A DNA stretch of 64,000 bases, from assembly GCA_003168335.1 (NCBI GenBank), contig PMSM01000006.1:634320-698319 (forward strand), read 5' to 3'. The notes below the pieces were generated by a model, which saw nothing but the letters and a program-made list of their open reading frames with translations, had not been told where the DNA came from and did not search any database. The stretch comes from Blastocatellia bacterium. Lineage in GTDB: Bacteria; Acidobacteriota; Blastocatellia; Pyrinomonadales; Pyrinomonadaceae. The first letter of the stretch is position 1, and each line of letters opens with the position of its first letter. Below are positions 19,284-42,154 of the stretch, in pieces. A program made the translations under genes and the position numbers.

Positions 19284-19388
19284 CAATTATGAGTCAGAAC
19301 CCGAAACAGAGTAGAGGATCGCATATCTCGTGGCAACAAATCAGCTTCGGGTAGTGTCCTGGCTTCCACCTTGATTTCATCCGGCCGC

Positions 19389-24598: not shown

Positions 24599-25450
24599 CT
24601 AGCCTGCTCCCAGCGGAGTTGGCACCGTCAAGCCCTTGTCGTCCGAGTTCGTTCCGATGGTTGGGGTCTGGAAATTCTTGTTTGGGGGACTTTCAGCGCC
24701 GTATTGTGCGAGCGTCGCGTGCATGTCGGCTCCCTCAGTAAGCCGGCCCCCGTTAACCACAAAAACACGGTTGCAGAGTTGTTTGATAGCCTGCAGGTTG
24801 TGACTGACAAAAAAGACAGTTCGCCCTTCGCTGTGCACCTGTCTCATTTTCTCATAACACTTCTTCTGAAAACTCGCATCCCCTACCGCCAGCACTTCAT
24901 CCAGGATCAATACGTCCGGTTCGAGATGAACCGCCACGGCAAACGCCAGTCGCAGGTACATCCCCGACGAGTAGAATTTCACCGGGATGTCGAGGAACCG
25001 TTCAACTTCGGAGAAGTCCACGATCTCGTCAAACTTGTGCGTTGTCTCGGCGCGTTTCATTCCTAAGATCGCCGCATTGAGAAAGATGTTTTCGCGGCCC
25101 GTCAAATCAGGATGAAAACCCGTCCCGATTTCCAACAGACTCCCGACGCGACCATAGATATCGACTTCGCCTTCGGAAGGCTTGGTGATTCGCGAAAGGA
25201 TTTTAAGCAAGGTTGACTTGCCGGCGCCGTTGGGCCCGATGATGCCGACAATCTCTCCGGGCGCGACCTCGAAGTTGACGTCGCGCAGCGCCCATAGTGT
25301 GTCAGTCTTCGAACCGTTGCTATCGGAAACGCGCGCCCACGGCCACTTGAGAGAGCCCATCAGCGCCTCGCGCAAGGTGGGATGAGTGTTTCGTGACTTG
25401 CGCAGTTGATAGCGCTTGCTCAAATTTCTGACTTGGACAATGGTCTGCAT
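24599..25450 (-). CDS. ABC exporter ATPase for polysaccharide (Wzt/TagH-like), short form
   Basis: The nucleotide-binding domain has Walker A GIIGPNGAGKSTLLK, a Q-loop region with RVGSLLEIGTGFHPDLTGREN, the signature YSSGMYLRLAFAVAV, and Walker B DVLILDEVLAVGD followed by the H-loop VSHNL. LLEIGTGFHPDLTGRENIF is specific to the polysaccharide and teichoic acid exporter branch. After the domain only about 35 residues remain, so there is no carbohydrate-binding C-terminal domain of the kind found in O9a-type Wzt proteins. The permease gene ends seven bases upstream, so the two form an operon. Confidence 0.93.
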   Translation of the reverse strand: MQTIVQVRNLSKRYQLRKSRNTHPTLREALMGSLKWPWARVSDSNGSKTDTLWALRDVNFEVAPGEIVGIIGPNGAGKSTLLKILSRITKPSEGEVDIYGRVGSLLEIGTGFHPDLTGRENIFLNAAILGMKRAETTHKFDEIVDFSEVERFLDIPVKFYSSGMYLRLAFAVAVHLEPDVLILDEVLAVGDASFQKKCYEKMRQVHSEGRTVFFVSHNLQAIKQLCNRVFVVNGGRLTEGADMHATLAQYGAESPPNKNFQTPTIGTNSDDKGLTVPTPLGAG

Positions 25451-25457
25451 CTCTTCT

Positions 25458-26369
25458 CTAGATCACGTCTGCGAATTCGTCTTCCATCCGCCGAAAGACA
25501 TGCGCGGAATAAATCAGCAGCGTCAGGGTAATAAGGGCAGAGATCATCAGGCCGCTGCGATTGAAAGGAAGTCCAAAGAGACACGCGCGAAAGTTCTCGA
25601 TAATACCGGCCAGCGGATTTAACTCATAAACTATTTTCCACCGTGGCGGCACCAGAATCGACGGGTAAACAATGGGCGAGACAAACATCCAAAGCTGGAG
25701 CATCACGGGTATCATGGTTCCTACGTCGCGATACTTCACATTGATAGACGATAACAACAACCCGATCGTGATAGCCAGGATCGTTAGATGGGCAACCAGC
25801 AGGGGCAAAACCAGGAGAGCCCAGGTCGGATGAATGTGGTAATAGACCAGCAACCCGGCAAGGATGACAAAGGCAATCAAGAAATCTGAGAGCCTGACGG
25901 CGACCATGGCGGCGGGAATCAGTACCCGCGGAAAATAAACCTTGGTGATCATCGATGCGCTCGCCACCAGGCTGAAGCTGCTGCTGGCGACCGCGTTGGA
26001 AAAAAAGGTCCACGGCAAAAGTGCCGCGTAAAGAAAAACTGGATAAGGCATGCCCGGCGTTGGGACGCGAACAAGCATTCCCAGAAATACCATAAAGATC
26101 AGAGTCATGAGCAGCGGCTGCAGAATGACCCACAACGCGCCCAGCAACGTTTGCTTGTAGCGCACCTTAACGTCGCGCCACACGAGAAAGAAGAACAGCT
26201 CCCTGTGCGCCCACACGTCACGCAAATCAATGAAAGACCAGGGCCGGCTCGGTCTGATCTTGATCAGCGGTTCTTTCGGCAGGATCGATGAAGAATAAGA
26301 GCTCTCGGGCAACATTGGTGTCCTGTTCGGCAAACGTGCTGCGCTGACACCCGGGTTCTCGATGCTCAT
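25458..26369 (-). CDS. ABC exporter permease for polysaccharide (Wzm/TagG-like)
   Basis: This ABC-2 type permease has about six membrane helices between residues 60 and 290. RELFFFLVWRDVKVRYKQT at the cytoplasmic N terminus is a family hallmark, as is PVMLQLWMFVSPIVYPSIL in the last third. Together with the ATPase gene seven bases downstream it should export an undecaprenyl-linked glycan across the inner membrane. The first 40 residues are Ser/Pro-rich and probably disordered. It is the first gene of its minus-strand group; the 160 bases upstream show no other gene. Confidence 0.93.
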   Translation of the reverse strand: MSIENPGVSAARLPNRTPMLPESSYSSSILPKEPLIKIRPSRPWSFIDLRDVWAHRELFFFLVWRDVKVRYKQTLLGALWVILQPLLMTLIFMVFLGMLVRVPTPGMPYPVFLYAALLPWTFFSNAVASSSFSLVASASMITKVYFPRVLIPAAMVAVRLSDFLIAFVILAGLLVYYHIHPTWALLVLPLLVAHLTILAITIGLLLSSINVKYRDVGTMIPVMLQLWMFVSPIVYPSILVPPRWKIVYELNPLAGIIENFRACLFGLPFNRSGLMISALITLTLLIYSAHVFRRMEDEFADVI

Positions 26370-26530
26370 ATCGTTACGTTAGTTCTACTGGCAGGGAATG
26401 CCCGACAGGTTATTTGATCAGACCGCATTGAAATAGCAGAGGCCAGCCATGACTCCCAAACCTAATTTGACGGCCGAAGAAACCGGGTTAGTTTATCCGG
26501 CGGCAAAACTGGGCGTCAAGGAGTGGCGAG

Positions 26531-27823
26531 CTAGTCTTGCGGACGCTTCGGCGTCGGCTTTGGCGCGGCTTCGAGACGCGTTATCTCGCTGACAGCCAAA
26601 GTGTATTCGCGAGACGGTTTTGTGCTGTTCTCTTTGACCCACCGGAGATGTGCTAACGCCAATTCGCGCTGACCCAACAATGACGCATCCATTCCGACGT
26701 AGACGCGCGCACGCACTTCGGTTTTCTTATCCTTGTCGACTGCCAGGTTGAGTAGCTCTGGTGCGGCCATTTCATGTCGCAAATACCTCATTAACAAATA
26801 AGGCCAATCGGACGTGTCGAAGTCCAGCGCGTGCGCATCAATGAAGGCCTTAGCCTCACCGTTCTTGCGGGCTTGTCTGAGACCGAAATAGCCGACGATT
26901 ACCATGTATAGCCGGAATTGGCCACTCTCGTCCGCCCGCGTGAGCCGCAGATAATCAACGGCATCAGCATAAGCAGAATCGCCTTTTGCCTGGTACAAAT
27001 AATTCCAGGCACGATCATAGTACGCCGGAGCCAGCTTGGGACTGATTGCAATTGCCTTGGTGAACTCTGAAATCGCTGCCTCGAGTTCGCCCTTGTTGCT
27101 GCGCGCGATGCCGCGCGAGCGATAGGCATCCGCATAATTGGGATTCAGCGCGAGAGCTTTGTCGAAGTCGGCCATCGCCCCATCGAGATCGTCCTGCTGG
27201 ACGCGGACGTCACCGCGCCCCCGGTAGGCCTCAGCATAGTTAGCATCCAGAATAATGGCTCCATTGAAGTCGGCAATAGCTCCTTCTAAGTCATTGCCGG
27301 CGTGACGAGCAAGGCCGCGACCACTGTAAGCGTCCGCTTTGGGATCGAGATCAATGGCTTTGTCGTAGTCGGCAATCGCGCCGTCATAGTCGGCTCTGGA
27401 GAACCGAGCGCGGCCACGGTTAGCATAGGCTGGGGCACTTTCGGGATCGAGCTCAATCGCCTTGTTAAGGTCAGCCATTGCCCCATCGTAATCGCCTTTC
27501 TGGTAGCGAGCATGGCCGCGATCATTGTAGGTCCTGCCAAACGCCGGATTGAGATCGATGGCCTTGTTATAGTCAGCGATCGCTCCGTCATAATCACCCT
27601 TGGACTCGCGAGCGTTGCCGCGAACCATGTAGGACGGCCAAAATCCCGGATCGAGAGCAATGGACTTATCGAAATCGGCTAGGGCTCCGTCGTAATCGCG
27701 ATGGTTGTAGCGAATGAGGCCGCGGGCGTTATAGTCGACGGCAGACTGCGGAGTCGTCTCCTGCGCCATCGCGGCATTCACGACCACGAACAGCAAGACT
27801 AATAAGCAACAGAAACGACGCAC
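26531..27823 (-). CDS. Secreted TPR-repeat protein
   Basis: A signal peptide (hydrophobic residues 5-18, then NAAMAQ) precedes about eight consecutive 34-residue TPR units, several nearly identical at the DNA level: DYDGALADFDKSIALDP, DYDGAIADYNKAIDLNP, DYDGAMADLNKAIELDP and so on. The last 130 residues contain helical segments that no longer match the TPR consensus. TPR scaffolds bind peptides or other proteins; here in the periplasm, possibly in assembly of the neighbouring glycan or export system. The start is GTG. The high similarity among repeats suggests recent internal duplication. Confidence 0.88.
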   Translation of the reverse strand: MRRFCCLLVLLFVVVNAAMAQETTPQSAVDYNARGLIRYNHRDYDGALADFDKSIALDPGFWPSYMVRGNARESKGDYDGAIADYNKAIDLNPAFGRTYNDRGHARYQKGDYDGAMADLNKAIELDPESAPAYANRGRARFSRADYDGAIADYDKAIDLDPKADAYSGRGLARHAGNDLEGAIADFNGAIILDANYAEAYRGRGDVRVQQDDLDGAMADFDKALALNPNYADAYRSRGIARSNKGELEAAISEFTKAIAISPKLAPAYYDRAWNYLYQAKGDSAYADAVDYLRLTRADESGQFRLYMVIVGYFGLRQARKNGEAKAFIDAHALDFDTSDWPYLLMRYLRHEMAAPELLNLAVDKDKKTEVRARVYVGMDASLLGQRELALAHLRWVKENSTKPSREYTLAVSEITRLEAAPKPTPKRPQD

Positions 27824-28085
27824 AACTTTAGTCCTTCAATCAAAAAGGTGCTTGCCTTAATTCTGGTTATTGTACTTCATGCGCGCTCTCAACGCGTTCG
27901 GAACCGGTAGAGGAAAATCGTGGGTTGGAATACGCGGGCTCTACATCGCGGCATGAGGACGGACCCCACGTTCCGCGCACGCTACATATCTCGGGGGCCG
28001 CTCCTTTCCGAAACGGCCCACCGAGGTTTAGCAGCTGCTCTTCAGACGCTAACCCGTCGCTCTAATTTCTGGCGGCTTCAAGAAA

Positions 28086-28895
28086 TCAATGCAGGGTGCC
28101 AAAACCGCTAGTGTAGGTTCCGACTTGCGTACAAGGGCAGCCAGTCCCAGTCCCTGACACTTGAGTTCCGTTCTGCGTCACGTTGGCGTACCAGGACGTG
28201 TTGGCCGGCCCGAGGACCCAGACATTAAACAGCGGGCCGGCGCCGGGACTGACCACCGAAAACGCGGTCCCATTGAAAGTGATGGATCCGTAGGCTACGG
28301 TAAGAAGCGCCGTAGCTACACTAGCGGGGTTACTCTGGTCCGCGCCCGCACCACTAACGCTTGCCCCAACGGTATTACCCGTGATTATGCAATTATAGAG
28401 ATCCGCCTTTGAATTTACGAGGCTGATTCCGGTAGCCAACTGCGTGAACTTACAGTCGTGAACCTCCAGCTTGCCGCTGTTGTGCTGAACGCCAGTGGTG
28501 CCCGCAGCATTTGCCCCGTTGAAGTTTATGTTGCGCAAGACTACCAGATCGGTCGCGCCGGCGCTGATGGTAAAGCCAGCCGTGCCCGTCGCCGCGACGA
28601 CGAAAGCCGTCGCGCCAGGAACCGCCGCGATCGTGATCGCCTTATTGATGGTAAGCGGGCCGTACCCGGCTGTGTCGAGCACAATCAGTTCGCCCCCGGC
28701 AGTAACCGCACCAATCGCCACCGCGAACGTCTTGCAGGGAGTGGCTTGAACGCAATTTGCGCCAATGTTGCCATCGCTGCCGGTGCTCGAGACAAACGCC
28801 CGCAGCACAGTCGCCTGCGCTGCCGCCGCAAAAGTCATAATCAACAGAGACACTGCCAGAGTGGTCAGGGTCCATTTCATCTTCTTCATCTTCAT
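28086..28895 (-). CDS. Secreted beta-helix protein, array member A1
   Basis: The protein has a Lys/Met-rich start (MKMKKMKW), a hydrophobic signal sequence and cleavage near AAAAQA. A conserved N-terminal domain follows (TVLRAFVSSTGSD, then GANCVQATPCKTFAVAIGAV with two Cys that could pair). Residues 60-200 carry short repeats with regularly spaced Asn and hydrophobic residues (LRNINFNGANAA, KLEVHDCKF, ADLYNCIITGN), the mark of a right-handed parallel beta-helix. The C-terminal 80 residues differ from those of its neighbours. It is probably an extracellular structural or carbohydrate-binding protein. No catalytic residues of pectate lyases are recognisable. A GGAG box precedes the ATG. Confidence 0.85.
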   Translation of the reverse strand: MKMKKMKWTLTTLAVSLLIMTFAAAAQATVLRAFVSSTGSDGNIGANCVQATPCKTFAVAIGAVTAGGELIVLDTAGYGPLTINKAITIAAVPGATAFVVAATGTAGFTISAGATDLVVLRNINFNGANAAGTTGVQHNSGKLEVHDCKFTQLATGISLVNSKADLYNCIITGNTVGASVSGAGADQSNPASVATALLTVAYGSITFNGTAFSVVSPGAGPLFNVWVLGPANTSWYANVTQNGTQVSGTGTGCPCTQVGTYTSGFGTLH

Positions 28896-28977
28896 TTCTC
28901 CTTAAAAAATCTAGAGTCGCGCAGGCACTTTGTGCCGGCGCCGAGTTCGCGGTCAGACTAACGGCTAGAGGGAAAGC

Positions 28978-29007
28978 ATATTAATCGCAGGACCCATGAC
29001 CCGTCAA
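28978..29007 (-). promoter_or_regulatory. Conserved promoter upstream of beta-helix gene A1
   Basis: Read on the minus strand, TTGACG is followed after 18 bases by TAATAT. The same pair and spacing recur upstream of A2 and A3, inside an otherwise only partly conserved block, which supports a functional sigma-70 type promoter. About 80 bases of leader separate it from the ATG. Confidence 0.65.
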
Positions 29008-29044
29008 CGTAATGAACCGGGCGCGAGAAACAATGCGCAACTCT

Positions 29045-29075
29045 CTGCCGGCCGCTCCACTTCAGGAAGCGGCCG
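29045..29075 (-). terminator. Hairpin downstream of beta-helix gene A2
   Basis: GCCGGCCGCT and AGCGGCCGGC form a perfect 10-bp stem with an 11-base loop, about 50 bases past the A2 stop codon. There is no good T-run, so it may be a stabilising hairpin rather than an intrinsic terminator. A degenerate copy lies at about 31175-31217, upstream of A3. Confidence 0.5.
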
Positions 29076-29122
29076 GCAAACAGAAGATCGGAAGGGCCAG
29101 ATCTTGATTCCCGAGCGTCCGC

Positions 29123-29923
29123 CTATCTTACGTTCTGGAGGTTGTTGAAAAATCCTACCTGAGCACAAGGGCAGCCTGCTCCGCTCCCGTTGAAAAGAGT
29201 GGTGTTACCCACCACGCTGGTGGTCATACCGTTATTTGGCGCTTGAACGTAGATATTAAAGACCGGGTTCGTGCCGGGATTGATGATCACAAATACAGTG
29301 CCATTGAATGTGATGCTGCCGCCACTAATTGTAAGAAGCGCTGCCGCCGCCGGACCGCCCTGGGTGTCGGTGCCTGTCCCACTGACGCTGACTGCATTGG
29401 TATTTCCCGTTAGTATGCAGTTATAGAGGTCCGCCTTGGAATTTACCAGGGTGATTCCGGTAGTCAACTGCGAGAACTTACAGTCGTAGACCTCCAGCTT
29501 GCCACTGTTGTGCTGAACGCCGGTGGTGCTCGCAGCATTTGCCCCGTTGAAGTTTATGTTGCGCAAGACGACCAGGTCGGTCGCGCCGGCGCCGATGGTG
29601 AAGCCAGCCGTGCCCGTCGCGGCAACGACGAAAGCCGTCGCGCCAGGAACCGCCGCGATCGTGATCGCCTTATTGACGACAAGCGGACCGTACCCGCTCG
29701 TGTCGAGCACGATCAACTCGCCACCCGCAGTAACCGCACCAATTGCCACCGCGAACGTCTTGCAGGGAGTGGCCTGAACGCAATTTGCGCCAATGTTGCC
29801 ATCGCTGCCGGTGCTCGAGACAAACGCCCGCAGCACAGTCGCCTGCGCTGCCGCCGCAAAAGTCATAATCAACAGAGACACTGCCAGAGTGGTCAGGGTC
29901 CATTTCATCTTCTTCATCTTCAT
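29123..29923 (-). CDS. Secreted beta-helix protein, array member A2
   Basis: The first 125 residues are almost identical to A1, including the MKMKKMKW start, the signal peptide and the paired Cys motif NCVQATPCKTFAVA. Similarity remains strong through KADLYNCILTGN and then falls sharply; the last 85 residues are A2-specific apart from a CPCAQVG motif shared with A1 (CPCTQVG). The beta-helix repeat pattern is the same. It has its own promoter (30000-30029) and ribosome binding site. The pattern of constant front and variable end suggests a common export and folding module with divergent surfaces. Confidence 0.85.
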   Translation of the reverse strand: MKMKKMKWTLTTLAVSLLIMTFAAAAQATVLRAFVSSTGSDGNIGANCVQATPCKTFAVAIGAVTAGGELIVLDTSGYGPLVVNKAITIAAVPGATAFVVAATGTAGFTIGAGATDLVVLRNINFNGANAASTTGVQHNSGKLEVYDCKFSQLTTGITLVNSKADLYNCILTGNTNAVSVSGTGTDTQGGPAAAALLTISGGSITFNGTVFVIINPGTNPVFNIYVQAPNNGMTTSVVGNTTLFNGSGAGCPCAQVGFFNNLQNVR

Positions 29924-29999
29924 TTCTCCTTAAAAGAATTTAGAGTCGCGCACGTGCCGGCTCGGAGTTCGCGGTCATGCTAACGGCTAGAGGGAAAGC

Positions 30000-30029
30000 A
30001 TATTAATCACAGGAGGCATCGCTCGTCAA
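30000..30029 (-). promoter_or_regulatory. Conserved promoter upstream of beta-helix gene A2
   Basis: On the minus strand TTGACG, 18 bases, TAATAT, as for A1. The spacer sequence differs in about half its positions while the two hexamers are unchanged. Confidence 0.62.
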
Positions 30030-30141
30030 TTTAATAGATCAGATGGGTGAGCTCAGTTAGTAGGAGCACTACCCTTCAGACTAATAATGGATCGAAGAAG
30101 AATTTGCGAAAATTACCTGGAGGGCACAATCCTAAAGGGAG

Positions 30142-30179
30142 GCTCCGCCGTCCGCCCCAGGAAGAGCGAGCGACGGAGC
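30142..30179 (-). terminator. Hairpin downstream of beta-helix gene A3
   Basis: GCTCCGCCG pairs with CGACGGAGC (one G-U pair) about 35-70 bases past the A3 stop. On the minus strand it is followed by TCCCTTTAGG, a weak T-run. A similar hairpin is found in the equivalent place after A4, within a duplicated stretch of about 150 bases. Confidence 0.5.
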
Positions 30180-30213
30180 AGACCCAAACAACTCAAACTG
30201 CGAACGGACCGGT

Positions 30214-31029
30214 CTAATGCAGTCCGGTGCTCATTGTGTAGATCCCTGGGGCTGCCAGACAAGTGCCCGTGACGAAAGTACAAGTAGAATTAGACGTATT
30301 CCCCGCGAGGTTAAGGGTAGCGCCCCCAGTGGAGAAGACGAAGATATTGAAAAGGGGATTCATGTTTCCGTTAACGCCAGGATTATTCTGCTGGGTCCCT
30401 ATGGTATTGAAGGTGATGTTCCCTCTATTGATGCGCACCTGCGCTACTGCCACTGTGGCATCTGGCAGAGTGCCTTGACCAGTGGAATTCACTCCCGTAC
30501 CACAGCCGTGTATATCGCAATCAATGAGGTCCATTTTCGCGACGCAATCCACGCCAATAGTCAATTGCTGAAAGGTGCAGTTTTCGACAATTAGCAGGCC
30601 CGAGTTATGCCTAAGTCCGGTGGTGTTCGCGGCATTTGCCCCATTGAAGTTAATATTGCGCAGCTTAACCATGTCGGTGGGACCGGCGCTGATGGAGAAG
30701 CCGATACTGCCCGTCGCCGCGACCACGAAAGCCGTCGCGCCAGGAACCGCAGCGATCGTGATCGCCTTATTGAGATTAAGCGGGCCGTAGCCGGCTGTGT
30801 CGAGCGCGATCAATTCGCCCCCGGGAGTAACCGCACCAATCGCCACCGCGAACGTCTTGCACGGAGTGGCTTGAACGCAATTCGCGCCAAGGTTGCTATC
30901 ACTGCCGGTGCTTGAAACAAACGCCCGCAACACAGTCGCCTGGGTTGCCACGGCGGAAACCATAATCAACAGAGTTGCCGTCAGGGCAATCTGTGTACAT
31001 TTCATCTTCTTCATCTTCTTCATCTTCAA
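30214..31029 (-). CDS. Secreted beta-helix protein, array member A3
   Basis: It starts MKMKKMKKMKC and has a signal sequence distinct from A1, A2 and A4 (ALTATLLIMVSAVATQA), but keeps TVLRAFVSSTGSD and NCVQATPCKTFAVAIGAV. From MVKLRNINFNGANAA onward it is almost identical to A4 and different from A1 and A2 (HNSGLLIVENCTFQQLTIGV, MDLIDCDIHGCGTGV). The beta-helix pattern with Cys-containing turns is evident. It has its own promoter at 31107-31136. A noncoding block 3' of this gene (about 30084-30240) is repeated 3' of A4 (about 31270-31440). Confidence 0.85.
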   Translation of the reverse strand: MKMKKMKKMKCTQIALTATLLIMVSAVATQATVLRAFVSSTGSDSNLGANCVQATPCKTFAVAIGAVTPGGELIALDTAGYGPLNLNKAITIAAVPGATAFVVAATGSIGFSISAGPTDMVKLRNINFNGANAANTTGLRHNSGLLIVENCTFQQLTIGVDCVAKMDLIDCDIHGCGTGVNSTGQGTLPDATVAVAQVRINRGNITFNTIGTQQNNPGVNGNMNPLFNIFVFSTGGATLNLAGNTSNSTCTFVTGTCLAAPGIYTMSTGLH

Positions 31030-31106
31030 TTCTCCTATAGAAAAATTTAGAGTGGCGCAGCACTTTGTGCCGGCACCGCGGTCAGACTAACGGCTAGAGG
31101 GAGAGC

Positions 31107-31136
31107 ATACTAATTGCAGGACCCACGACCCGTCAA
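31107..31136 (-). promoter_or_regulatory. Conserved promoter upstream of beta-helix gene A3
   Basis: On the minus strand TTGACG, 18 bases, TAGTAT. It lies in the roughly 375-base gap between A3 and A4, which otherwise holds the leader of A3, a degenerate GCCGGC hairpin and the 3' hairpin of A4. Confidence 0.6.
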
Positions 31137-31331
31137 CATAATGAACCAGGCGCGAGAACAAGGCACAACTCTCTGCCGGCCGCCCGTGTAGAGCGGCCGA
31201 CATGAAGCAGCCGGCAGAAAAGCCCAGGAGATGAAAGACAGTAGTGCTCCGTTAGTGGGGGCACTTGAGACTAATAATGGATCGAAGAAGAATTTGCCAA
31301 AACTACCTGGAGGGCACGATCCTAAAGGGAA

Positions 31332-31368
31332 GCTCCGCCGGCCGCTCAGAAAAAGCGGGCGACGGAGC
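31332..31368 (-). terminator. Hairpin downstream of beta-helix gene A4
   Basis: GCTCCGCCG and CGACGGAGC frame an AT-containing loop with a further CCGCTC/AGCGGG inner pairing. It is the counterpart of the hairpin at 30142-30179 in the duplicated 3' block. Confidence 0.5.
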
Positions 31369-31403
31369 ACAGACCCAAACAACTCAAACTGCGAACGACC
31401 GGT

Positions 31404-32198
31404 CTAATGCAGTCCGGAGCTCATTGTGTAGATCCCTGGTCCTGCCTGACAATTCGAGCCCGTGCAAGCAGAAGCAGTTGTATTCCCCGCGAGGTTAAGG
31501 GTAGCGCCCCCAGTGGAGAAGACGAAGATATTGAAAAGGGGATTCATGTTTCCGTTAAGGCCGGCATTATTCTGCTGGGTCCCCACGTTATTGAAGGTGA
31601 TGTTCCCTCTATTGACGCGCACCTGCGCTACCGCCACTGTGGCATCTGGTAGAGTGCCTTGACCAGTGGATTGAACTCCCGTGCCGCAGCCGTGTATGTC
31701 GCAATCAATGAGGTCCATTTTTGCGACGCAATCCACGCCAATAGTCAATTGCTGAAAGGTGCAGTTTTCGACAATTAGCAGGCCTGAGTTATGCCTAAGT
31801 CCGGTGGTGCCCGCAGCATTTGCCCCATTGAAGTTAATATTGCGCAGCTTAACCATGTCAGTCGCGCCGGCGCTAACGGCGAAGCCGATAGTGCCCGTCG
31901 CCGCGACCACGAAAGCCGTCACGCCAGGAACCGCAGCGATCGTGATCGCCTTATTGATGACAAGCGGGCCGTACCCGGCTGTGTCGAGCACAATCAGTTC
32001 GCCCCCGGGAGTAACCGCGCCAATCGCCACTGCGAACGTCTTGCAGGGAGTGGCTTGAACGCAATTTGCGCCAATGTTGCCATCGCTGCCGGTGCTCGAG
32101 ACAAACGCCCGCAGCACAGTCGCCTGCGCTGCCGCCGCAAAAGTCATAATCAACAGTGACACTGCCAGAGTGATCACTGTCCATTTCATCTTCTTCAT
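31404..32198 (-). CDS. Secreted beta-helix protein, array member A4 (mosaic)
   Basis: The ATG at 32198 has a GGAG box seven bases upstream and gives the MKKMKW start shared by the array; the frame is open 19 codons further but that part is not conserved. The signal peptide and first domain (LAVSLLIMTFAAAAQA, SSTGSDGNIGANC) match A1 and A2. From about residue 100 (MVKLRNINFNGANAAG) to the end it matches A3 instead. A4 is therefore a recombinant of the two types, or A3 is. Unlike A1-A3 it lacks the conserved TTGACG promoter block: upstream similarity ends within about 15 bases of the ribosome binding site. Confidence 0.85.
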   Translation of the reverse strand: MKKMKWTVITLAVSLLIMTFAAAAQATVLRAFVSSTGSDGNIGANCVQATPCKTFAVAIGAVTPGGELIVLDTAGYGPLVINKAITIAAVPGVTAFVVAATGTIGFAVSAGATDMVKLRNINFNGANAAGTTGLRHNSGLLIVENCTFQQLTIGVDCVAKMDLIDCDIHGCGTGVQSTGQGTLPDATVAVAQVRVNRGNITFNNVGTQQNNAGLNGNMNPLFNIFVFSTGGATLNLAGNTTASACTGSNCQAGPGIYTMSSGLH

Positions 32199-32641
32199 CT
32201 TCAATTCTCCTTTGAATGGATTTCGGGCTGAACCTGATCCGTCGGAATCAAGCAAAAAGTGTTCGCTGGATGGCGTACTCTACACCAGGTTGGCAGGTAA
32301 ATGCCAAGCTCACACGCCTCGTTTCTCAACTTCGTGTCTTTCACGCCCGTCGCGGTCAGCGTGTCTCTCCGCTCGTGTTAGCCAGCAGGCCTCTGCATAC
32401 GCGATGGTTCAGCGCCATTTCGTATGCACTCTGGCGAAGCCTGCTCGGGCAAATGGGCAAGGGGTCTGTTGACGTTTGGGTTTTCGACGATCAGATCAAT
32501 CGCTGATCCGAAACGAGTCCGTTACGAACTTCAAACCGAGGGCTTCCGGCACCGAGACTTCTTCTGCCCTATCCTCGACGGTGGAATCGAGGTGTCTGGC
32601 CGGAATGTATGCGTCTTTTGCTACTTTGGTATAATGCCCCG
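32199..32641. other. 443-base gap between beta-helix A4 and the sulfotransferase-like gene
   Basis: No coding frame with family similarity is visible on either strand. A TATAAT hexamer at about 32630-32635 stands only six bases before the ATG at 32642, and no clear -35 box is seen at the usual distance. If it is a promoter, the transcript would start at or next to the ATG and be leaderless. The rest has no recognisable repeat. Confidence 0.45.
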
Positions 32642-33244
32642 ATGATTCGGAGCCATGTGGTTATTAGCGGCACGGGGCGGGCGGGAACTACGTTCTTAAT
32701 CCAGCTCCTCACCCACCTCGGGCTGGATACGGGTTTTGACGTCAATACCCTCGAGCTGTTTCCGATCGCCCGCGCCGGCCTTGAAATGGATATTCGCGCG
32801 CCCAATGCGCCCTATATCATCAAGAACCCTCATATCTGCTTTTTGGCCGAAGAAGTGCTGGCATCATCGGTGCGGATTGAGCATGCCATTATCCCGGTCC
32901 GCCAGTTCGAGGCCGCAGCCGCGAGCCGCATCCACGTTCAAAAGCTGGCCACGGGAAATGTGAATGGAAAGGATCGGGTACCGGGCGGCCTCTGGATCAC
33001 AGACAAGGCTGACGAACAGGTGGGCGTGCTTCGCTTGCAGTTCACGCAACTGATTGAGGTACTTGTCCGCCACGACATTCCGATAACTTTCTTAGCGTAT
33101 CCGCGGCTTGTTCGCGATCCTGATTATCTATATGGAAAGCTCAAATTTCTATTGGGCGATATCGGTCTGGCGACCTTTCAAGAAGCGTTCAATGGACTTG
33201 TTCGGCCAGAGTGGATACACCAGTTCAACGGGGACGACCGATAG
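32642..33244 (+). CDS. Sulfotransferase-like P-loop protein
   Basis: The N-terminal VVISGTGRAGTTFLIQLLTHLGL fits the 5'-phosphosulfate-binding loop of sulfotransferases, where Arg and Thr residues hold PAPS. A later VRQFEAAAASRI may correspond to the 3'-phosphate-binding segment. At 200 residues it is shorter than most family members. The ATG at 32642 is chosen because it precedes the P-loop directly; the frame is open for 11 more codons. It could sulfate the glycan made by this locus using PAPS from the enzyme encoded at 42575. A kinase-like role is possible, so the specific function is only moderately certain. Confidence 0.65.
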   Translation: MIRSHVVISGTGRAGTTFLIQLLTHLGLDTGFDVNTLELFPIARAGLEMDIRAPNAPYIIKNPHICFLAEEVLASSVRIEHAIIPVRQFEAAAASRIHVQKLATGNVNGKDRVPGGLWITDKADEQVGVLRLQFTQLIEVLVRHDIPITFLAYPRLVRDPDYLYGKLKFLLGDIGLATFQEAFNGLVRPEWIHQFNGDDR

Positions 33245-33319
33245 GGCGGCTCGAATAACGAAGCGGCGTGGCCGCTCAAACACCATCAAGCAATATTTTA
33301 TCCTTAGACCCCAATTCGT

Positions 33320-34060
33320 TTACTCTTTCAATTTTACAGATAGCTCGATCATCTTCTGATTTCGCGGGTGGTTCCAATCGTCTATGAGCCTGGCCGATAG
33401 ACCGGAAATCTCAGCCAGCCATTCGATTTCGCGAAATGAATAGTGAAAAGGGTCGGTGTCGAAGTTTGTGACGGTTCCTCCGGGTTGATGTTTGATGGTC
33501 GCAATGTGCCCCGGAAATGGCGCCAGGAAGAAGGTAGAAAAAAATGTGCCGTCAGACTTTAGGGCCTTACGAGTTTGCACAAAGCACCGGACAATGAGGT
33601 TCATATCTAAATGCGTGAAGACTGATTGAGCGATTGCAAAGTCGAAGGATATTCCGAAGCGATCAAACTCGAATTTGTCATTTACTAATAGATGCGGCTG
33701 TTTGCTTGTTAGGCCTTTCTGCTCAAGTTCGTGCTTCCCAGCCTCAACCAGGGATGCATTTATATCGACTCCGTAGTAATTGCCTGAATCGAGATACTCG
33801 ATAATGGGAATCCCACATCTAAGTGCGCCACATCCAATGTCCAGTAGTCTATGGTGAGGCAATAGCCCGCTCTGTCGCAAGAACTCAAACTGCAGAGCTC
33901 CGATCTCGTGCCACAAGCCGCCCACGAAAGTCCTGTGTTCGCCCGCTGCTATTTCTTCCGGCGTCAGCTGGCGTTCGTAGAAATCATTAATAGCTTTCAT
34001 AAGTCTGCGTCGTACGAAGATGTGATTTTGCAGCTTCGCAGAATTCCATCTCCAAATCAC
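33320..34060 (-). CDS. Class I SAM-dependent methyltransferase
   Basis: Motif I is LLDIGCGALRCGIPI at about residues 72-86, and motif II follows in NYYGVDINASLVEAGKHEL. FAIAQSVFTHLDMNLIVRC and TFFSTFFLAPFPGHI are post-motif regions typical of small-molecule or sugar methyltransferases. The GTG start overlaps the stop codon of the upstream fused glycosyltransferase by four bases (GTGA), so the two are translationally coupled. An in-frame ATG 20 codons later is an alternative but lacks a ribosome binding site. It probably methylates a sugar hydroxyl or carboxyl group of the glycan. Confidence 0.85.
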   Translation of the reverse strand: MIWRWNSAKLQNHIFVRRRLMKAINDFYERQLTPEEIAAGEHRTFVGGLWHEIGALQFEFLRQSGLLPHHRLLDIGCGALRCGIPIIEYLDSGNYYGVDINASLVEAGKHELEQKGLTSKQPHLLVNDKFEFDRFGISFDFAIAQSVFTHLDMNLIVRCFVQTRKALKSDGTFFSTFFLAPFPGHIATIKHQPGGTVTNFDTDPFHYSFREIEWLAEISGLSARLIDDWNHPRNQKMIELSVKLKE

Positions 34061-36177: not shown

Positions 36178-36207
36178 GTCGCCGGACCCTTCAAGAACAA
36201 AAAACCA

Positions 36208-36251
36208 CCCCTGCCGCCTACTCGTTGATGTGACGAGATGGCCGGCAGGGG
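36208..36251 (-). terminator. Intrinsic terminator of beta-helix gene B1
   Basis: CCCCTGCC and GGCAGGGG form the outer stem, CTCGT and ACGAG an inner stem. On the minus strand a run of six T follows the hairpin. It lies about 30 bases past the B1 stop codon. Confidence 0.8.
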
Positions 36252-36282
36252 CAAATTTCTAACTAACCGGTTTCCTTTGGGT

Positions 36283-37236
36283 CTACTCGGTCTGACCTGT
36301 GCCCGTGCTCGGGAACGCGACTCCTCCGGTTTGGTTGTTTCCGTACGAGGACACCAGTCCGCCGCCCGTGGCGACCGCCAGTCCCGCGTTATTCGCCTGA
36401 TTATTCAGCGCCGTGGTGTTCGAGACGCGGATGATCGAGCTGGCTGTGGTCGCCGAGAAACCAACGACGTTGTTCGACACCAGGCAGTGGTCACAATTGA
36501 CATCCGTCGTGCCGCCCGCGGTCTGTTGCGCGGAGATGCCGGCGGTGGTGTTCTGGCTGAACACTGAGTTATAGATGGTGGCCCTCACGTTGCTCCCGGC
36601 AAAAAACCCGGTCGCGTTCTTCTGCATGCGTGAGTTGTTTATGTGCACGTTGATTTGAGTCGCGCCACTGCTGGGATTGACGCTGATGGCGCTCCCGGTG
36701 CAGTTCTGAATCGTCGTGTTGTTGATTTCCAGTTGGCCGCCGCCGGCGCGGCTGTCGTCAATCCCGTTCCCGGGCGCTCCGTTCTGACCCGAAATGAAGC
36801 AATTTTCGACGAAGACGGTGGTGGCAGCGATTATGTTAACACCTCTGAGTCCGGTGCCCGCGCCTTGAATGGAGAGCCCACGCAAGGTCACTGCTTTGCG
36901 CACATCGGCGGGATCGGTAATGTTGATGGTGACACCGTTAGTTACCGAGTTAAGGATGCTGCCCAGACCTGTCATGCTGCCTTCGAGAGTGATTGACTTG
37001 ACGATGGTCACGGCGCCGAATCCACCTGGATCGAGACAGTCGATCTCGCCGTCCTTGGCCGTCTTTGAGATGGCGCCGGCAAAGGTCTTGCAGGGCGCGG
37101 TGCGGCTGCACGGATTGACGTCGTCGCCAACGCCGGATACCCAGGTGCGCGTTGCCTGTGCCTGGGCCAGCGACGCAAAGCCAAGGGTGAAAACTAGAAC
37201 TACTAATGCGTTAATAGTGAACCGAAACTTGTTCAT
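36283..37236 (-). CDS. Secreted beta-helix protein B1
   Basis: The 317-residue protein starts MNKFRFTINALVVLVFTLGF with cleavage near AQAQA. The next segment, RTWVSGVGDDVNPCSRTAPC followed by KTFAGAISKTAKDGEIDCLD, carries Cys that may pair. Residues 60-300 show the hydrophobic/Asn ladder of a right-handed parallel beta-helix (ITLEGS, RGLSIQGAGTG, VFVENCFISGQNGAPGNG, INNTTIQNCTGSA, VHINNSRMQKNATGFF, TIYNSVFSQNTTAG). It is about 93 percent identical by eye to B2 and only generally similar to the A family. It is probably an extracellular passive structural or glycan-binding protein. Confidence 0.86.
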   Translation of the reverse strand: MNKFRFTINALVVLVFTLGFASLAQAQATRTWVSGVGDDVNPCSRTAPCKTFAGAISKTAKDGEIDCLDPGGFGAVTIVKSITLEGSMTGLGSILNSVTNGVTINITDPADVRKAVTLRGLSIQGAGTGLRGVNIIAATTVFVENCFISGQNGAPGNGIDDSRAGGGQLEINNTTIQNCTGSAISVNPSSGATQINVHINNSRMQKNATGFFAGSNVRATIYNSVFSQNTTAGISAQQTAGGTTDVNCDHCLVSNNVVGFSATTASSIIRVSNTTALNNQANNAGLAVATGGGLVSSYGNNQTGGVAFPSTGTGQTE

Positions 37237-37483
37237 TTGGAGTCTCCTTCTTCTGCTCTAAGTGATAAGTTAACGGGATGGCCACCAGTAGAACACGGAT
37301 CCGTTCCGCCCACTGTTTGCGCTCAATTCCCTTATTTCCTGAGGGCCGCACTTTGTAAGACCGACCCTGGTTCTCTCTTGAACGCTGGCATAATAGCACA
37401 GGACATCCAGCGTCATCTGGAACGCTGAAGCGTGTCCTCCCCGGGCGGGGCGGTCTACCTCCGCTCCGAATGACGAAAAAAGC

Positions 37484-37526
37484 CCCTGCCGACCTACTCG
37501 CGAAAATGACGAGATGATCGGCAGGG
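37484..37526 (-). terminator. Intrinsic terminator of beta-helix gene B2
   Basis: CCCTGCCGA and TCGGCAGGG form a 9-bp stem with an inner CTCG/CGAG pairing; on the minus strand a T-run follows. It is a homologue of the terminator at 36208-36251, with compensating changes at the base of the stem, and lies inside the 323-base gap between B1 and B2 together with the leader of B1. Confidence 0.8.
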
Positions 37527-37558
37527 ACAAATTTCTAACTAACCGGTTTCCTTTGGGT

Positions 37559-38512
37559 CTACTCGGTCTGACCTGTGCCCGTGCTCGGGAACGCGACTCC
37601 TCCGGTTTGGTTGTTTCCGTACGAAGAGACGAGTCCGCCGCCCGTGGCGACCGCCAGTCCCGTGTTATTCGCCAGATTATTCAGCGCCGTGGTGTTCGAG
37701 ACGCGGATGATTGCGCCGGCTGTGGTCGCCTGGAAGCCAGCGACGTTGTTCGACACCAGGCAGTGGTCACAATTGACATCCGTCGTGCCGCCCGCCGTCT
37801 GTTGCGCGGAGATTCCGGCGGTGGTGTTCTGGCTGAACACTGAGTTATAGATGGTGGCCCTCACGTTGCTCCCGGCAAAAAACCCGGTCGCGTTCTTCTG
37901 CATGCGTGAGTTGTTTATGTGCACGTTGATTTGCGTGCTGCCACTGCTGGGATTGACGTTGAGGGCGTTCCCGGTGCAGTTCTGAATCGTCGTGTTGTTG
38001 ATTTCCAGTTGGCCGCCGCCGGCGCGGCTGTCGTCAATCCCGTTCCCGGGTGCCCCGTTCTGACCCGAAATGAAGCAATTTTCGACGAAGACGGTGGTGG
38101 CAGCGGTGATGCTAACACCTCTGACTCCGGTGCCCGCGCCTTGAATGGAGAGCCCACGCAAGGTCACTGCTTTGCGAACATCGGCGGGATCGGTAATGTT
38201 GACATTGATACCGTTGGTTGCCGAGTTAAGGATGCTGCCCAGACCTGTCATGCTGCCTTCGAGAGTGATTGACTTGACGATGGTCACGGCGCCGAAGCCA
38301 CCCGGATCGAGACAGTCGATCTCGCCGTCCTTGGCCGTCTTTGAGATGGCGCCGGCAAAGGTCTTGCAGGGCGCGGTGCGGCTGCACGGATTAACGTCGT
38401 CGCCGACACCGGACACCCAGGTGCGGGGCGCTTGCGCCTGAGCTATGGAAGCAAAGGCGAACGTGAAGATCGCGATTGCCAGGATGTTGATAGTGAGCCG
38501 AAACTTGTTCAT
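37559..38512 (-). CDS. Secreted beta-helix protein B2
   Basis: From the ATG at 38512 the protein is 317 residues, identical in length to B1, and starts MNKFRLTINILAIAIFTFAF. The two proteins differ at roughly 20 positions, mostly in the signal peptide and in a few exposed turns (for example EINNTTIQNCTGNALNVNPS). The reading frame is open 62 codons upstream, but that part is the untranslated leader, whose homologue is also present before B1. A GGAG box stands upstream of the ATG. The block GGCCACCAGTAGAACACGGA, at 38545-38584 here and at 37278-37317 before B1, marks the duplicated promoter region. Confidence 0.86.
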   Translation of the reverse strand: MNKFRLTINILAIAIFTFAFASIAQAQAPRTWVSGVGDDVNPCSRTAPCKTFAGAISKTAKDGEIDCLDPGGFGAVTIVKSITLEGSMTGLGSILNSATNGINVNITDPADVRKAVTLRGLSIQGAGTGVRGVSITAATTVFVENCFISGQNGAPGNGIDDSRAGGGQLEINNTTIQNCTGNALNVNPSSGSTQINVHINNSRMQKNATGFFAGSNVRATIYNSVFSQNTTAGISAQQTAGGTTDVNCDHCLVSNNVAGFQATTAGAIIRVSNTTALNNLANNTGLAVATGGGLVSSYGNNQTGGVAFPSTGTGQTE

Positions 38513-38642
38513 TTGGAGTCTCCTTTTTTTCCTTTGAAGTTGGGGTGGCCACCAGTAGAACACGGATCCGTTCCGGCCACTGTTGCGCCGAGTCTTCCCA
38601 TTGTTGCCGAAAAAAGCGTTTTCATCAAACCGCTTGAAAAAA

Positions 38643-39029
38643 TCAATTGTCGCCACCGCAATCGCGGGCTGTGTCGTTGGTAATTGTCCAGGTGGCACTA
38701 TCGCCGCAGGTCACGACCGTCGAAAGAAAGCAGCCGTCCTGATCCTCGCCAATGACCTTCACTTGCTGTTGATCGCACGCAACGTTATTGAGTGCAAACG
38801 ACTGGCCAGGTGGAATGGTTGCGTGGTCCAGTTGGTTGCTGCTCCAGTCGTCAGTGTTCACGGGCGAGAGATAGACATTGCGAATTTCTCTGTTCGAATT
38901 ATTCACAATATTGACCGAGGTCGTTTGCGTTCGCGCACTTGACAGCAGCGGTACCGCAATAACAGCCAAGAGTGCAACACATATGATAATTAGGCCGCGG
39001 GGATTACGCGTGCCATCTGAGTTTTTCAT
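38643..39029 (-). CDS. Small secreted or membrane-anchored protein, unknown function
   Basis: A hydrophobic segment (LIIICVALLAVIAVPLL) at residues 13-29 acts as signal peptide or anchor. The mature 95 residues form a beta-rich domain (VNIVNNSNREIRNVYLSPVN, then DDWSSNQLDHATIPPGQSFA) with four Cys. The pattern of a short beta-sandwich with an NxDDW loop recurs in unnamed secreted proteins that I cannot assign to a described family. It lies between B2 and the HYR gene on the same strand. Confidence 0.65.
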   Translation of the reverse strand: MKNSDGTRNPRGLIIICVALLAVIAVPLLSSARTQTTSVNIVNNSNREIRNVYLSPVNTDDWSSNQLDHATIPPGQSFALNNVACDQQQVKVIGEDQDGCFLSTVVTCGDSATWTITNDTARDCGGDN

Positions 39030-39106
39030 TTCGTACTCCTCTCAACAGCGTTCGACGTAGGCGGACGCGAGATACGCCCGCCCGGTTTATCTCACAGCCC
39101 TTCAAG

Positions 39107-42100
39107 CTACGGGCCGCAATTGCTCGTGACGGTGTAGTGCGGCCCACTGTCCACGGCTGTCTCGCCCGGGTTATGTGGCACTACGACCTTCGCCGTAGCC
39201 GTGGCAAAGTGGCCTGACGCATCTGTCACCTTAAAGTAGATGGTGTACACCCGGCCGTTACCGCCACCTTCACGCTCAGACCGCAATTGTACCGACTTGC
39301 AGTTGGAAGCAATGACAATATCCTTCAGAGTGTTGCCTGAGCCATTGCCATTCTCCGCCTCGTCACTGGTGACCTTAGTGATAACAACGCTGCCCACGGT
39401 AATGCTCGTATCGCACTGGTCGCTGGCGCTGGTCACAAAGTCAGCAACCCCGAAGGTGTGATAATCATGGTTCGGCGGCCACATCGAAGGTGTTTGGCCG
39501 TTCAGTGTGATCGTTGGGTCAAGCGTATCCTGCACGATCACCGTCCTGCTGACCTGGGCCGCCGGATTACCCGCGGCGTCGGTCGCATTGTAGTTGATTG
39601 TATACGTGCCTACGGTGTTCGCATCAACCACTCCGGAAGCGGTGGCCGCGAAGTTGCCGCAGTTGTCATGAGCCGTCGCACCGGGATCGACAAAAGTGGT
39701 GTGACATTCGACATACAGTGGATTAGCTCCGTCAACCGTGATCGTCGGTGGCGTAGTGTCGTGCACCGTGACGTGTTGCGTAACTGACCGCGTGGTACCG
39801 CCCGCATCCGTCGCGGTATAGACCACGTTAGTCGTTCCCAACGGGAACTGATTACCCGCTGGCACCCCGCTGCGTGTGACCGTAACCGAACAGTTGTCGG
39901 TGGCGGTGGGGGGTGTACCCAGCTCGGCATCTGTTACCAGGACGGTGCAAGTTGTGTTACCTGGACCGGTCGAGCGGTCTACGTCCGGAGGCGCGGGGGA
40001 TATTGTTGGCGGCGTCACATCATGCACATGGACCTGTTGGGTCTGAGTCGAGACGTGTCCGTTGCCGTCGTCATAGTGCCACGTGATCGTGAAGTCACCC
40101 TGCGTGGTGTACGTCAACGGATCGCCGGTCGTGCCGGCAACGGTTCCGGTACACGCATCGGTTGCCGTCGGTACTGTCGTAACTGTCGCCGAACACTCGC
40201 CCGTGAGCGGCGGCAGCAGCGCCACGTCAGGCACCGGTGGTGATGTGTCGGTGGTGACGTTTATCGTCTGATTCTGACTGGTCGTATTACCGTGCCCGTC
40301 ATCGTACACCCAGTGAACCACGTATGTGCCGGGGACCTGGTAGGTGACCGGGTCCGCAGTCGCCCCAGATATCAGTCCACAGTTGTCGGTGGCCGTCGGG
40401 GCTTCAAAAACCACCTTGGGCCCGCTCGGAGTCTGGATCGTAGTCGGCACGCCAGCCGACGCTGAACAGTCATGGGTGATGGTCGGCAGTGTTGCCAGAG
40501 TCGGTGTAGGCGGCGTGTGATCCTCAACGTTCACCGTGAAGGTGGAGTTCCCGCCGGTGGTATCCGAGCAGGTAACCAGCGTCTCACCTACGGCAAAGAA
40601 CGATCCGGATGCGTGGTCGCAACTAATTGGGGCGACGCACTGAGCGTTGCCCGTTGGGGTAGCAAAGCTGACATGGGTCCCGCACGCATTGGCATCGGCA
40701 GTCGCGACAATCGGCGCCGGCACGGTCACCCTACAGCCCGAGTCCGGGGTGATCGTCACGGTGAAGTCGCATGAGGCAGAGTTATTTCCGCTGTCAGTCG
40801 CGGTGCAATGGACAGTTGTAGTTCCGGAGAATGAGTCGCCCGAATTGTGGTCGCAAGAGACAGGTGCACTACCGCTGTTATCGGCGGACGTAACATTAAA
40901 GGTGACAGTCGCCGACCCCGAACCAGGAGAACTCTCGAACCTGGCAATGTTCGCCGGACAATTGATTGTAGGACTCTCAGTATCGTTGATTGTCACTGTG
41001 AAGGTGCATGTTTCACCAGACTCAGTCGAAGCCGTGATGACCGAGGTTCCGATCGGGAATAAATAGTCGTTCGTCTGCGGATCGGGAGCCGCCGTCATGC
41101 TGACTGATCCGCAAGTTCCTGTAGTAACCGGTGACGGGAAGTCTGCACTGTGTATGACGTGGCTGCCAGTGCCGGGATCCTGGTCGAAACTAATAGAGGT
41201 GGGGCAAACCAGACTACACTCCGACGGGCTGCCCCCGGCTGTAATTTCGAATTGAGCGGTCGACGTATTGTTGCTGTTATCAGAGTCCGGTGTGGGACTG
41301 GAAACGGTCGCCGTTGTCAGCACGGTGCCGGCGCTTCCGCCAACTTGATAAACGGCGGTGAATTCCGACCGCTCGCCATTGGCCAGACTCGCTATCGTGC
41401 AGTCGTTTGCAGCCGCGGGAGCGCAGGCCGGGCCGGTTTGCTGCGTGAAAGATACCAGTGTTGCACCACTCGGGACGGAATCAATCAAATGAACGTTTTG
41501 CGCGGTGTCCGGCCCAGCGTTGGCCACTATCAAAAGAAAAGCAATGCTGCCCCCGGTTGGGACTGATGCGTCGCCGTCGCGCACAATCTTCTGAACCAAA
41601 ACGTCGGCAGTGACATGCGCCGTGTCGTGTACCGTGAAGGTCGCAGTCTGGCGTACTGCCCCGTTTGAACGAAGCAGGTTCACCCTCCACGTCCCGATAG
41701 AAGTGGGCGTGAAGTGATACTGGGTTGTGTCATCCGTAGATGCGACATCCAACTGCTGGATCAAGCCGGCAGAGTCTAGCCAGGCAACGTGCCACGGGAA
41801 CAGGGAGATGGGCACACCGGTCGCTTTCGCACATACCGCCTCGCCCAAACTAAAGTCCGTCTTCGGAGTCGAGCAATCAGACGCGAGATAGGTCGCGATT
41901 CCTTCCGGCAAAGGTTCCGTTACCCGCAAAACCGGTTGGAAGCTTGACGGCGACCGCGCGAGAATGGAATTCGAAGTCATCGGTGCGGGCGCTCCAGAGG
42001 GAAGACTCGCCTGCGAGGAACCGCGGGCCGGCAAAGAACTCGAGCGCGCCGAATAGAATGGTACCGCCACCGCGGCTATCGCGATAATGAAAGCACTAAT

Positions 42101-42154
42101 GAGGACAAGCGAACTCAGGCGCGTGGAATATCGGTGGTCGTTCCGGTTTTTCAT
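39107..42154 (-). CDS. Large secreted HYR/DUF11-repeat surface protein
   Basis: A membrane-spanning signal segment lies at residues 13-35. Residues 85-175 are an Ig-like domain; 180-305 a DUF11-like domain (VQKIVRDGDASVPTGGSIAF, ANAGPDTAQNVHLIDSVPSG). Two or three HYR domains follow to about 560 (VTINDTESPTINCPANI, TVHCTATDSGNNSASCDFTV). From 560 to 900 come repeated units beginning DTTPPTI or DTSPPVPDVALLPPL, each with a TDNC or TDAC motif. The final 100 residues hold YTIYFKVTDASGHFATATAKV. It is probably an adhesion or matrix protein. No sortase or Por-type sorting signal is apparent at the C terminus. Its leader at 42260-42408 is discussed separately. Confidence 0.88.
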   Translation of the reverse strand: MKNRNDHRYSTRLSSLVLISAFIIAIAAVAVPFYSARSSSLPARGSSQASLPSGAPAPMTSNSILARSPSSFQPVLRVTEPLPEGIATYLASDCSTPKTDFSLGEAVCAKATGVPISLFPWHVAWLDSAGLIQQLDVASTDDTTQYHFTPTSIGTWRVNLLRSNGAVRQTATFTVHDTAHVTADVLVQKIVRDGDASVPTGGSIAFLLIVANAGPDTAQNVHLIDSVPSGATLVSFTQQTGPACAPAAANDCTIASLANGERSEFTAVYQVGGSAGTVLTTATVSSPTPDSDNSNNTSTAQFEITAGGSPSECSLVCPTSISFDQDPGTGSHVIHSADFPSPVTTGTCGSVSMTAAPDPQTNDYLFPIGTSVITASTESGETCTFTVTINDTESPTINCPANIARFESSPGSGSATVTFNVTSADNSGSAPVSCDHNSGDSFSGTTTVHCTATDSGNNSASCDFTVTITPDSGCRVTVPAPIVATADANACGTHVSFATPTGNAQCVAPISCDHASGSFFAVGETLVTCSDTTGGNSTFTVNVEDHTPPTPTLATLPTITHDCSASAGVPTTIQTPSGPKVVFEAPTATDNCGLISGATADPVTYQVPGTYVVHWVYDDGHGNTTSQNQTINVTTDTSPPVPDVALLPPLTGECSATVTTVPTATDACTGTVAGTTGDPLTYTTQGDFTITWHYDDGNGHVSTQTQQVHVHDVTPPTISPAPPDVDRSTGPGNTTCTVLVTDAELGTPPTATDNCSVTVTRSGVPAGNQFPLGTTNVVYTATDAGGTTRSVTQHVTVHDTTPPTITVDGANPLYVECHTTFVDPGATAHDNCGNFAATASGVVDANTVGTYTINYNATDAAGNPAAQVSRTVIVQDTLDPTITLNGQTPSMWPPNHDYHTFGVADFVTSASDQCDTSITVGSVVITKVTSDEAENGNGSGNTLKDIVIASNCKSVQLRSEREGGGNGRVYTIYFKVTDASGHFATATAKVVVPHNPGETAVDSGPHYTVTSNCGP

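Follow-up and report, generated by a model that had tools for sequence, protein, structure and literature searches.

A mosaic array of secreted beta-helix genes in a Blastocatellia surface-polysaccharide locus, probably with fronts homogenised by gene conversion

How do neighbouring genes come to share their beginnings in one combination and their ends in another? The question is raised by a 64,000-nucleotide stretch of a Blastocatellia bacterium (positions 634,320 to 698,319 of contig PMSM01000006.1 in the GenBank assembly GCA_003168335.1, a draft of 14 contigs), hereafter called the window, in which a first-pass annotation had described a tandem array of four secreted beta-helix genes, here named A1 to A4. 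The four open reading frames (ORFs) are indeed present at 28086-32198, all of them intact and on the minus strand, with products of about 264-271 amino acids and spacers of 227-377 bp. A ribosome-binding site precedes every one, and inspection of the sequences reveals in each product a lysine-rich start and a hydrophobic stretch up to a Gln-Ala-Thr junction. At its start (31000-31030), A3 has one additional in-frame 9-nt unit (GATGAAGAA) compared with the other copies. The genes are as follows.

28086..28895, minus strand: A1, secreted beta-helix protein of 269 amino acids (ORF; structure model)
29123..29923, minus strand: A2, secreted beta-helix protein of 266 amino acids (ORF)
30214..31023, minus strand: A3, secreted beta-helix protein, with an ATG start and a possible TTG start at 31029 (ORF)
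31404..32198, minus strand: A4, mosaic copy with an A1/A2-type front and an A3-type back (identity scan, trees, site counts)

Identity in sliding 90-base windows of the codon alignment changes sharply along the genes. A1 and A2 are 100% identical at the 5' end and fall to 51-56% at the 3' end. A4 is 95-100% identical to both A1 and A2 over the first 150 bases, and its back is 38-57% identical to theirs. For A3 and A4 the identity begins at 74-76% at the 5' extremity, rises to 90-98% over the greater part of the back and drops to 79-83% at the extreme 3' end. Exact common stretches of 101-161 bases join the fronts of A1, A2 and A4. Site counts agree: in the front, A4 differs from A1 at 9 of 241 sites and from A3 at 38 of 241, and in the back it differs from A3 at 38 of 450 sites and from A1 at 214 of 438. 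The sharing of halves described in the first-pass annotation is thus borne out, the similarity of A4 shifting from A1/A2 in front to A3 in the back.

A search of the genome's own proteins returned seven matches, all open frames, which add three genes to the four already described: A5, a fifth close copy, unlinked on contig C1, which shares the front and is 69% identical to A1 over residues 2-181, and a pair of more distant paralogues, B1 and B2. Trees were built on the five copies A1-A4 and A5. Over alignment columns 1-300, A4 groups with A1/A2 and A3 with A5, and the back tree is rejected (approximately unbiased (AU) test, p=0.017); over columns 301-534, A3 groups with A4, apart from A1/A2, and the front tree is rejected (AU p=0.003). 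In the tail (columns 535-933) the three best trees all keep A3 with A4, and the placement of A5 varies. Allowing two trees with a single break raises the log-likelihood by 92 units and improves the Akaike information criterion by 158; the break is best placed at column 345, followed by 300 and 285. A triplet permutation test likewise resolves A4 into an A1/A2-like left and an A3-like right part (p=0.00025, or 1 in 4001, the lowest value the test can give). Agreement between the trees of the two halves would speak for a single history, and the halves give significantly different trees; the proposed trace of recombination or gene conversion therefore survives, and recombination among the array genes is almost certain.

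The switch had been placed near LRNINFNGANAA, a segment said to be almost invariant. Its protein sequence is identical in all five copies, as claimed, but the synonymous differences in its codons already split A1/A2 from A3/A4, so the segment belongs to the back block and was ruled out as the exchange point. The switch zone of A4 sits upstream of it:

31857..31958, minus strand: switch zone in A4, alignment columns 244-345, residues 81-114 (trees, break model)
31812..31847, minus strand: LRNINFNGANAA codons in A4, residues 118-129 (synonymous-site inspection)
30074..30155, minus strand: 3' flank of A3, 93% identical to 31264-31345, the 3' flank of A4

A1-like sites in A4 run from about column 18-27 through column 244, which makes the tract internal to the gene and about 200-340 bp long. 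The left edge of the tract is fuzzy, columns 21 and 26 being of A3 type, and the A4 leader across the start is closer to A3 than to A1/A2. The region upstream of A4 has no match to any other copy. A back and 3' flank of A3 type together with a unique upstream region point to an internal tract that was copied in, and the flanks and tract of A4 fit non-reciprocal copying into this gene.

The recombination quite likely took the form of front conversion, and the whole is probably a tandem beta-helix family of a glycan locus whose fronts have been homogenised by gene conversion. A lineage-specific tandem family would have expanded by duplication within a surface-polysaccharide locus, its back parts first separating into an old A1/A2 type and an old A3/A4 type. 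The front, comprising the signal peptide, the N-terminal cap and the first coils, would then have been recopied repeatedly between copies, the unlinked A5 included, by homologous recombination, in the simplest case by non-reciprocal gene conversion over short tracts of roughly 200-340 bp, and the diverged backs would have ceased to recombine. Read in this way, the array may serve as a clean single-genome case in which recombination keeps the secretion front uniform while the remainder of a surface-protein family diverges.

A mosaic could also arise from the other end of the gene, if the front was inherited and different 3' ends were imported, as in polymorphic toxins and effectors with a constant N-terminus. 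Such a swap would account for fronts of A1, A2 and A4 that are so much alike over the first 150 bases and for A1-type and A3-type backs that are about half identical, as the 214 differing sites between A4 and A1 illustrate. It would also accommodate the loss of any tail donor: in the family sample, which consists of 97 genomes with a completeness of at least 85, neither the A1 tail nor the A4 tail has a match in the 96 other genomes searched. However, homology continues past the switch, both in the A1-A5 similarity up to residue 181 and in the tails themselves, where A1 and A3 are 38% identical (E 5.5e-6). The back block also extends into the 3' flank common to A3 and A4, and the A4 upstream region is unlike the others'. 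Together these features make an internal front tract simpler than a swapped end, and the import of back ends is unlikely. Of the earlier picture of a constant front with exchangeable ends, the recently shared front is retained, whereas the ends are old diverged homologues and not modules that exchange freely. According to the available part of PMC3482391, polymorphic toxins and the Amoebophilus APD1/APD2 effectors resemble the array in their conserved fronts, divergent C-terminal parts and possibly parallel deployment; the difference is that the backs here look like diverged versions of one beta-helix protein and not like swapped effector domains. An immunity gene beside each copy, as for polymorphic toxins, was not found, no ORF of at least 100 amino acids lying wholly inside the A-array spacers.

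It had further been suggested that the array resembles systems that diversify surface proteins, and a dedicated antigenic or phase variation system, in which the array stores variants of a surface protein within the population, could explain its mosaic structure, its secreted products and its place in a surface locus. Families of recombining complete copies do exist, an example being the Neisseria Opa genes in the available text of PMC4534519. All four ORFs are intact with ribosome-binding sites, however, and promoter-like sites stand before A1-A3, at the same place in an upstream sequence common to the three genes:

28978..29007, minus strand: promoter-like TTGACG-18-TAATAT upstream of A1 (consensus match only)
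30000..30029, minus strand: promoter-like TTGACG-18-TAATAT upstream of A2 (consensus match only)
31107..31136, minus strand: promoter-like TTGACG-18-TAGTAT upstream of A3 (consensus match only)

Since the promoter-like site is copied before each, A1, A2 and A3 may be transcribed individually, and the genes would most likely be expressed side by side. The search of the genome itself returned no silent partial copy, and the gene starts contain no frame-shifting repeat, only the in-frame 9-nt unit. Nowhere in the genome does RVT_1 match above its cut-off of 29.6 bits, the one match (28.9 bits, contig C10) containing an in-frame stop, and a diversity-generating retroelement target was ruled out on this ground. 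The substitution spectrum, in which 53 of the 97 differences between the A1 and A2 tails involve A, is indecisive for a retroelement. The pair B1 and B2 shows the reverse arrangement:

36283..37236, minus strand: B1, distant paralogue, 32% identical to A1, in tandem with B2
37559..38506, minus strand: B2, distant paralogue, 35% identical to A1

Between B1 and B2 it is the signal-peptide code that has diverged (39 of 60 bases identical in the worst block), and the mature part with the start of the 3' flank is 88-100% identical per 60-base block, about 95% overall. The pair thus holds another tract, of polarity opposite to that of the A array; the position of a tract within the gene can thus vary, and this speaks against a mechanism designed for constant fronts. 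A surface-diversifying system is unsupported by such tests as were feasible, and dedicated antigenic or phase variation is very unlikely here. The pattern resembles ordinary gene conversion within a local family more than a dedicated surface-switching machine.

In the available text of PMC13061034, the PE/PPE/ESX genes of Mycobacterium tuberculosis underwent many gene-conversion events among paralogues, and the likeness to the A array lies in the copying of tracts from one secreted-protein paralogue to another; those events were recorded across 151 isolates, whereas here mosaic trees from one genome carry the inference. The Opa genes, as the available part of PMC4534519 describes them, share with the array several complete recombining copies with variable and constant parts. 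They differ in that a CTCTT repeat within their signal-peptide code turns the genes off and on, where A3 has just one extra in-frame 9-nt unit. The same portion of that source (PMC4534519) presents pilE/pilS and vlsE as mosaics made by segmental gene conversion, as here, but with one expression site and silent copies, whereas all copies in the A array are intact.

Could a single tree suffice, with a strongly constrained front and a fast-changing back? The front protein sequence is strongly conserved across the family, and an 87-base front stretch has a median between-genome nucleotide identity of 0.82 (898 pairs), as constraint would predict. What changes along the array is topology, however, and not rate alone, as the AU tests already attest, and third positions alone repeat the triplet permutation signal (p 0.00025). 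Synonymous sites show a step as well. A1 and A4 have 6 synonymous differences at 79 sites in columns 1-300, 19 at 36.5 in columns 301-444 and 58 at 84 thereafter (Fisher 2e-7); for A1 and A5 the values over the same ranges are 19 at 79, then 23 at 34.5 (4e-5), then 72 at 86. In the control of 1200 between-genome pairs of the family, the median synonymous difference is 0.71 in the front versus 0.70 in the rest, which indicates that the front is not generally frozen at synonymous sites. A history free of recombination is accordingly highly improbable. An assembly chimera among repeats, to which the exact stretches common to three fronts and the 14-contig draft might lend some colour, is the least credible explanation, as A4 has a unique upstream region and differs in front from A1 and in back from A3, its nearest copies, so that no simple join of present copies would produce it.

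Front closeness within a genome varies elsewhere in the family. With a synonymous difference of 0.37, the pair of genes in genome G181 is intermediate; the pairs in G115 and G034 show no closeness (0.77 and 0.84). In G123 (L111:2023-7856), two beta-helix genes flank a large HYR-like gene and, within one block of the mature front, are identical at 87 of 90 bases, with much less in common elsewhere. The codons there, taken from one front, mostly end in G or C, and between-genome identity reaches 0.94 in a similar 87-base stretch, for which the search pattern captured one of the two G123 copies; codon bias may explain the closeness of the G123 fronts.

Several observations weigh against homogenisation of the fronts by conversion into A4. 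Columns 181-300 alone leave the topologies unseparated, and the sites of A4 at columns 267-345 give a mixed signal. In a minority of between-genome pairs the front is less diverged than the rest at synonymous sites (G025/G073, 0.18 versus 0.48; G031/G427, 0.25 versus 0.48), and part of the front/back contrast may be a weak trend of the family. The direction may also have been the opposite: because A3 and A5 have a signal-peptide region in common, an A5-like gene may have been the source of the A3 front, instead of an A1-like gene being the source of the A4 front. No A-type orthologue was found in the 6 other genomes of the genus (best E 1.3e-19), nor any orthologue of A1-A4 in the 96 other genomes of the family, and the timing of the conversion is therefore undatable. 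Finally, confidence in the structure models of A1 and A4 is good up to about residue 180 and low in the tails that follow.

These models, computed with AlphaFold2 from 25-row alignments, have a mean predicted local distance difference test score of 70.8 for A1 and 70.6 for A4. With the A1 model, Foldseek found no match at E <= 0.001, its best rows being a rhamnogalacturonan lyase, a pectate lyase and a pectin methylesterase. The A4 model matched phage tailspikes, pectin methylesterases and alginate lyases with Z of 13.7-16.9 over 165-211 residues among the 50 rows listed. Pectin-lyase-like right-handed beta-helix proteins (pectin methylesterases, PL6 alginate lyases, tailspikes) thus have the same predicted fold, with identity of 6-20% in those 50 rows. 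A1 and A4 are accordingly predicted to be right-handed parallel beta-helices of the pectin-lyase-like superfamily, the models bearing on fold and not on function. PF13229 matches 17 of 25 family members and none of A1-A4 at E <= 1, and the 25-member profile weakly matches two mannuronan C5-epimerase chains (2pyg E 5.2e-5).

A profile of the front matches 38 of the 97 family genomes, with seven matches in this genome and at most four in every other. Across 396 genomes of the phylum, the five close copies score 9e-129 or better, and the best match outside this genome has an E of 8.2e-28. Relatives were not found among 72,556 plasmid records, and of 143 pattern matches in viral sequences none was confirmed. 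Among genome contigs, seven pattern matches yielded one weak relative, a 581-aa protein in a Burkholderiales metagenome-assembled genome (L043:5698-7443), whose leader is rich in proline and alanine and whose front motif is similar. Judging by titles and abstract openings among the matches listed, no published description of the beta-helix family or of its HYR/Wzm/Wzt block was found.

The array is flanked by B1/B2 on one side and by genes for a TPR protein and a Wzm/Wzt-type exporter on the other. The surrounding region of the window, with glycosyltransferases, methyltransferases, an AlgX-like/MBOAT pair, an ATP sulfurylase/APS kinase and a sulfotransferase, is a surface-polysaccharide locus.

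39107..42154, minus strand: HYR/DUF11/Ig-like surface protein of 1015 amino acids
26531..27823, minus strand: TPR protein between A1 and Wzm
25458..26369, minus strand: Wzm-like ABC-2 permease
24599..25450, minus strand: Wzt-like ATPase, short form of 283 amino acids

A block of an HYR/DUF11 protein, one or more beta-helix genes and a Wzm/Wzt-type exporter on one strand (24599-42154 here) recurs, and is newly described. In two genomes of the same genus (G003 and G005), a beta-helix gene adjoins an HYR/DUF11 protein upstream of Wzm and Wzt, and in a third (G001) its neighbour is again HYR, the stretch fetched containing no Wzm. Among the matches listed, Wzm lies within 15 kb in 20 of the 38 positive family genomes, without exception downstream of the beta-helix gene and on its strand, and HYR within 15 kb in 19 of the 38; G007 and G031 probably represent a single contig that entered these counts twice. 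For the remaining 18 genomes, the matches listed include no Wzm on the same contig, an absence of little weight, as many are drafts of hundreds of contigs.

With the recurrent block and its O-antigen-type exporter, a testable role in surface polysaccharide biology can be proposed for this uncharacterised secreted family. Tentatively, the beta-helix proteins could act together with the exported glycan, the fronts holding export and folding constant and the backs offering different surfaces for its binding or processing. It is a more speculative and rather doubtful proposal that the family is an unrecognised companion of ABC-exported polysaccharide, forming in this lineage a small, recombination-buffered glycan-binding repertoire in which conversion of the fronts would preserve secretion and N-terminal folding and the backs would be free to recognise different glycans.

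The Wzt-like ATPase has 283 amino acids here, versus 424 and 432 in two genomes of the same genus, and may therefore lack a C-terminal domain. A fused ATP sulfurylase/APS kinase gene overlaps the sulfotransferase gene (42575-45081), and these genes suggest a sulfated surface glycan. The AlgX-like and MBOAT pair is located at 18150-20849; such pairs have a role in polysaccharide O-acetylation.

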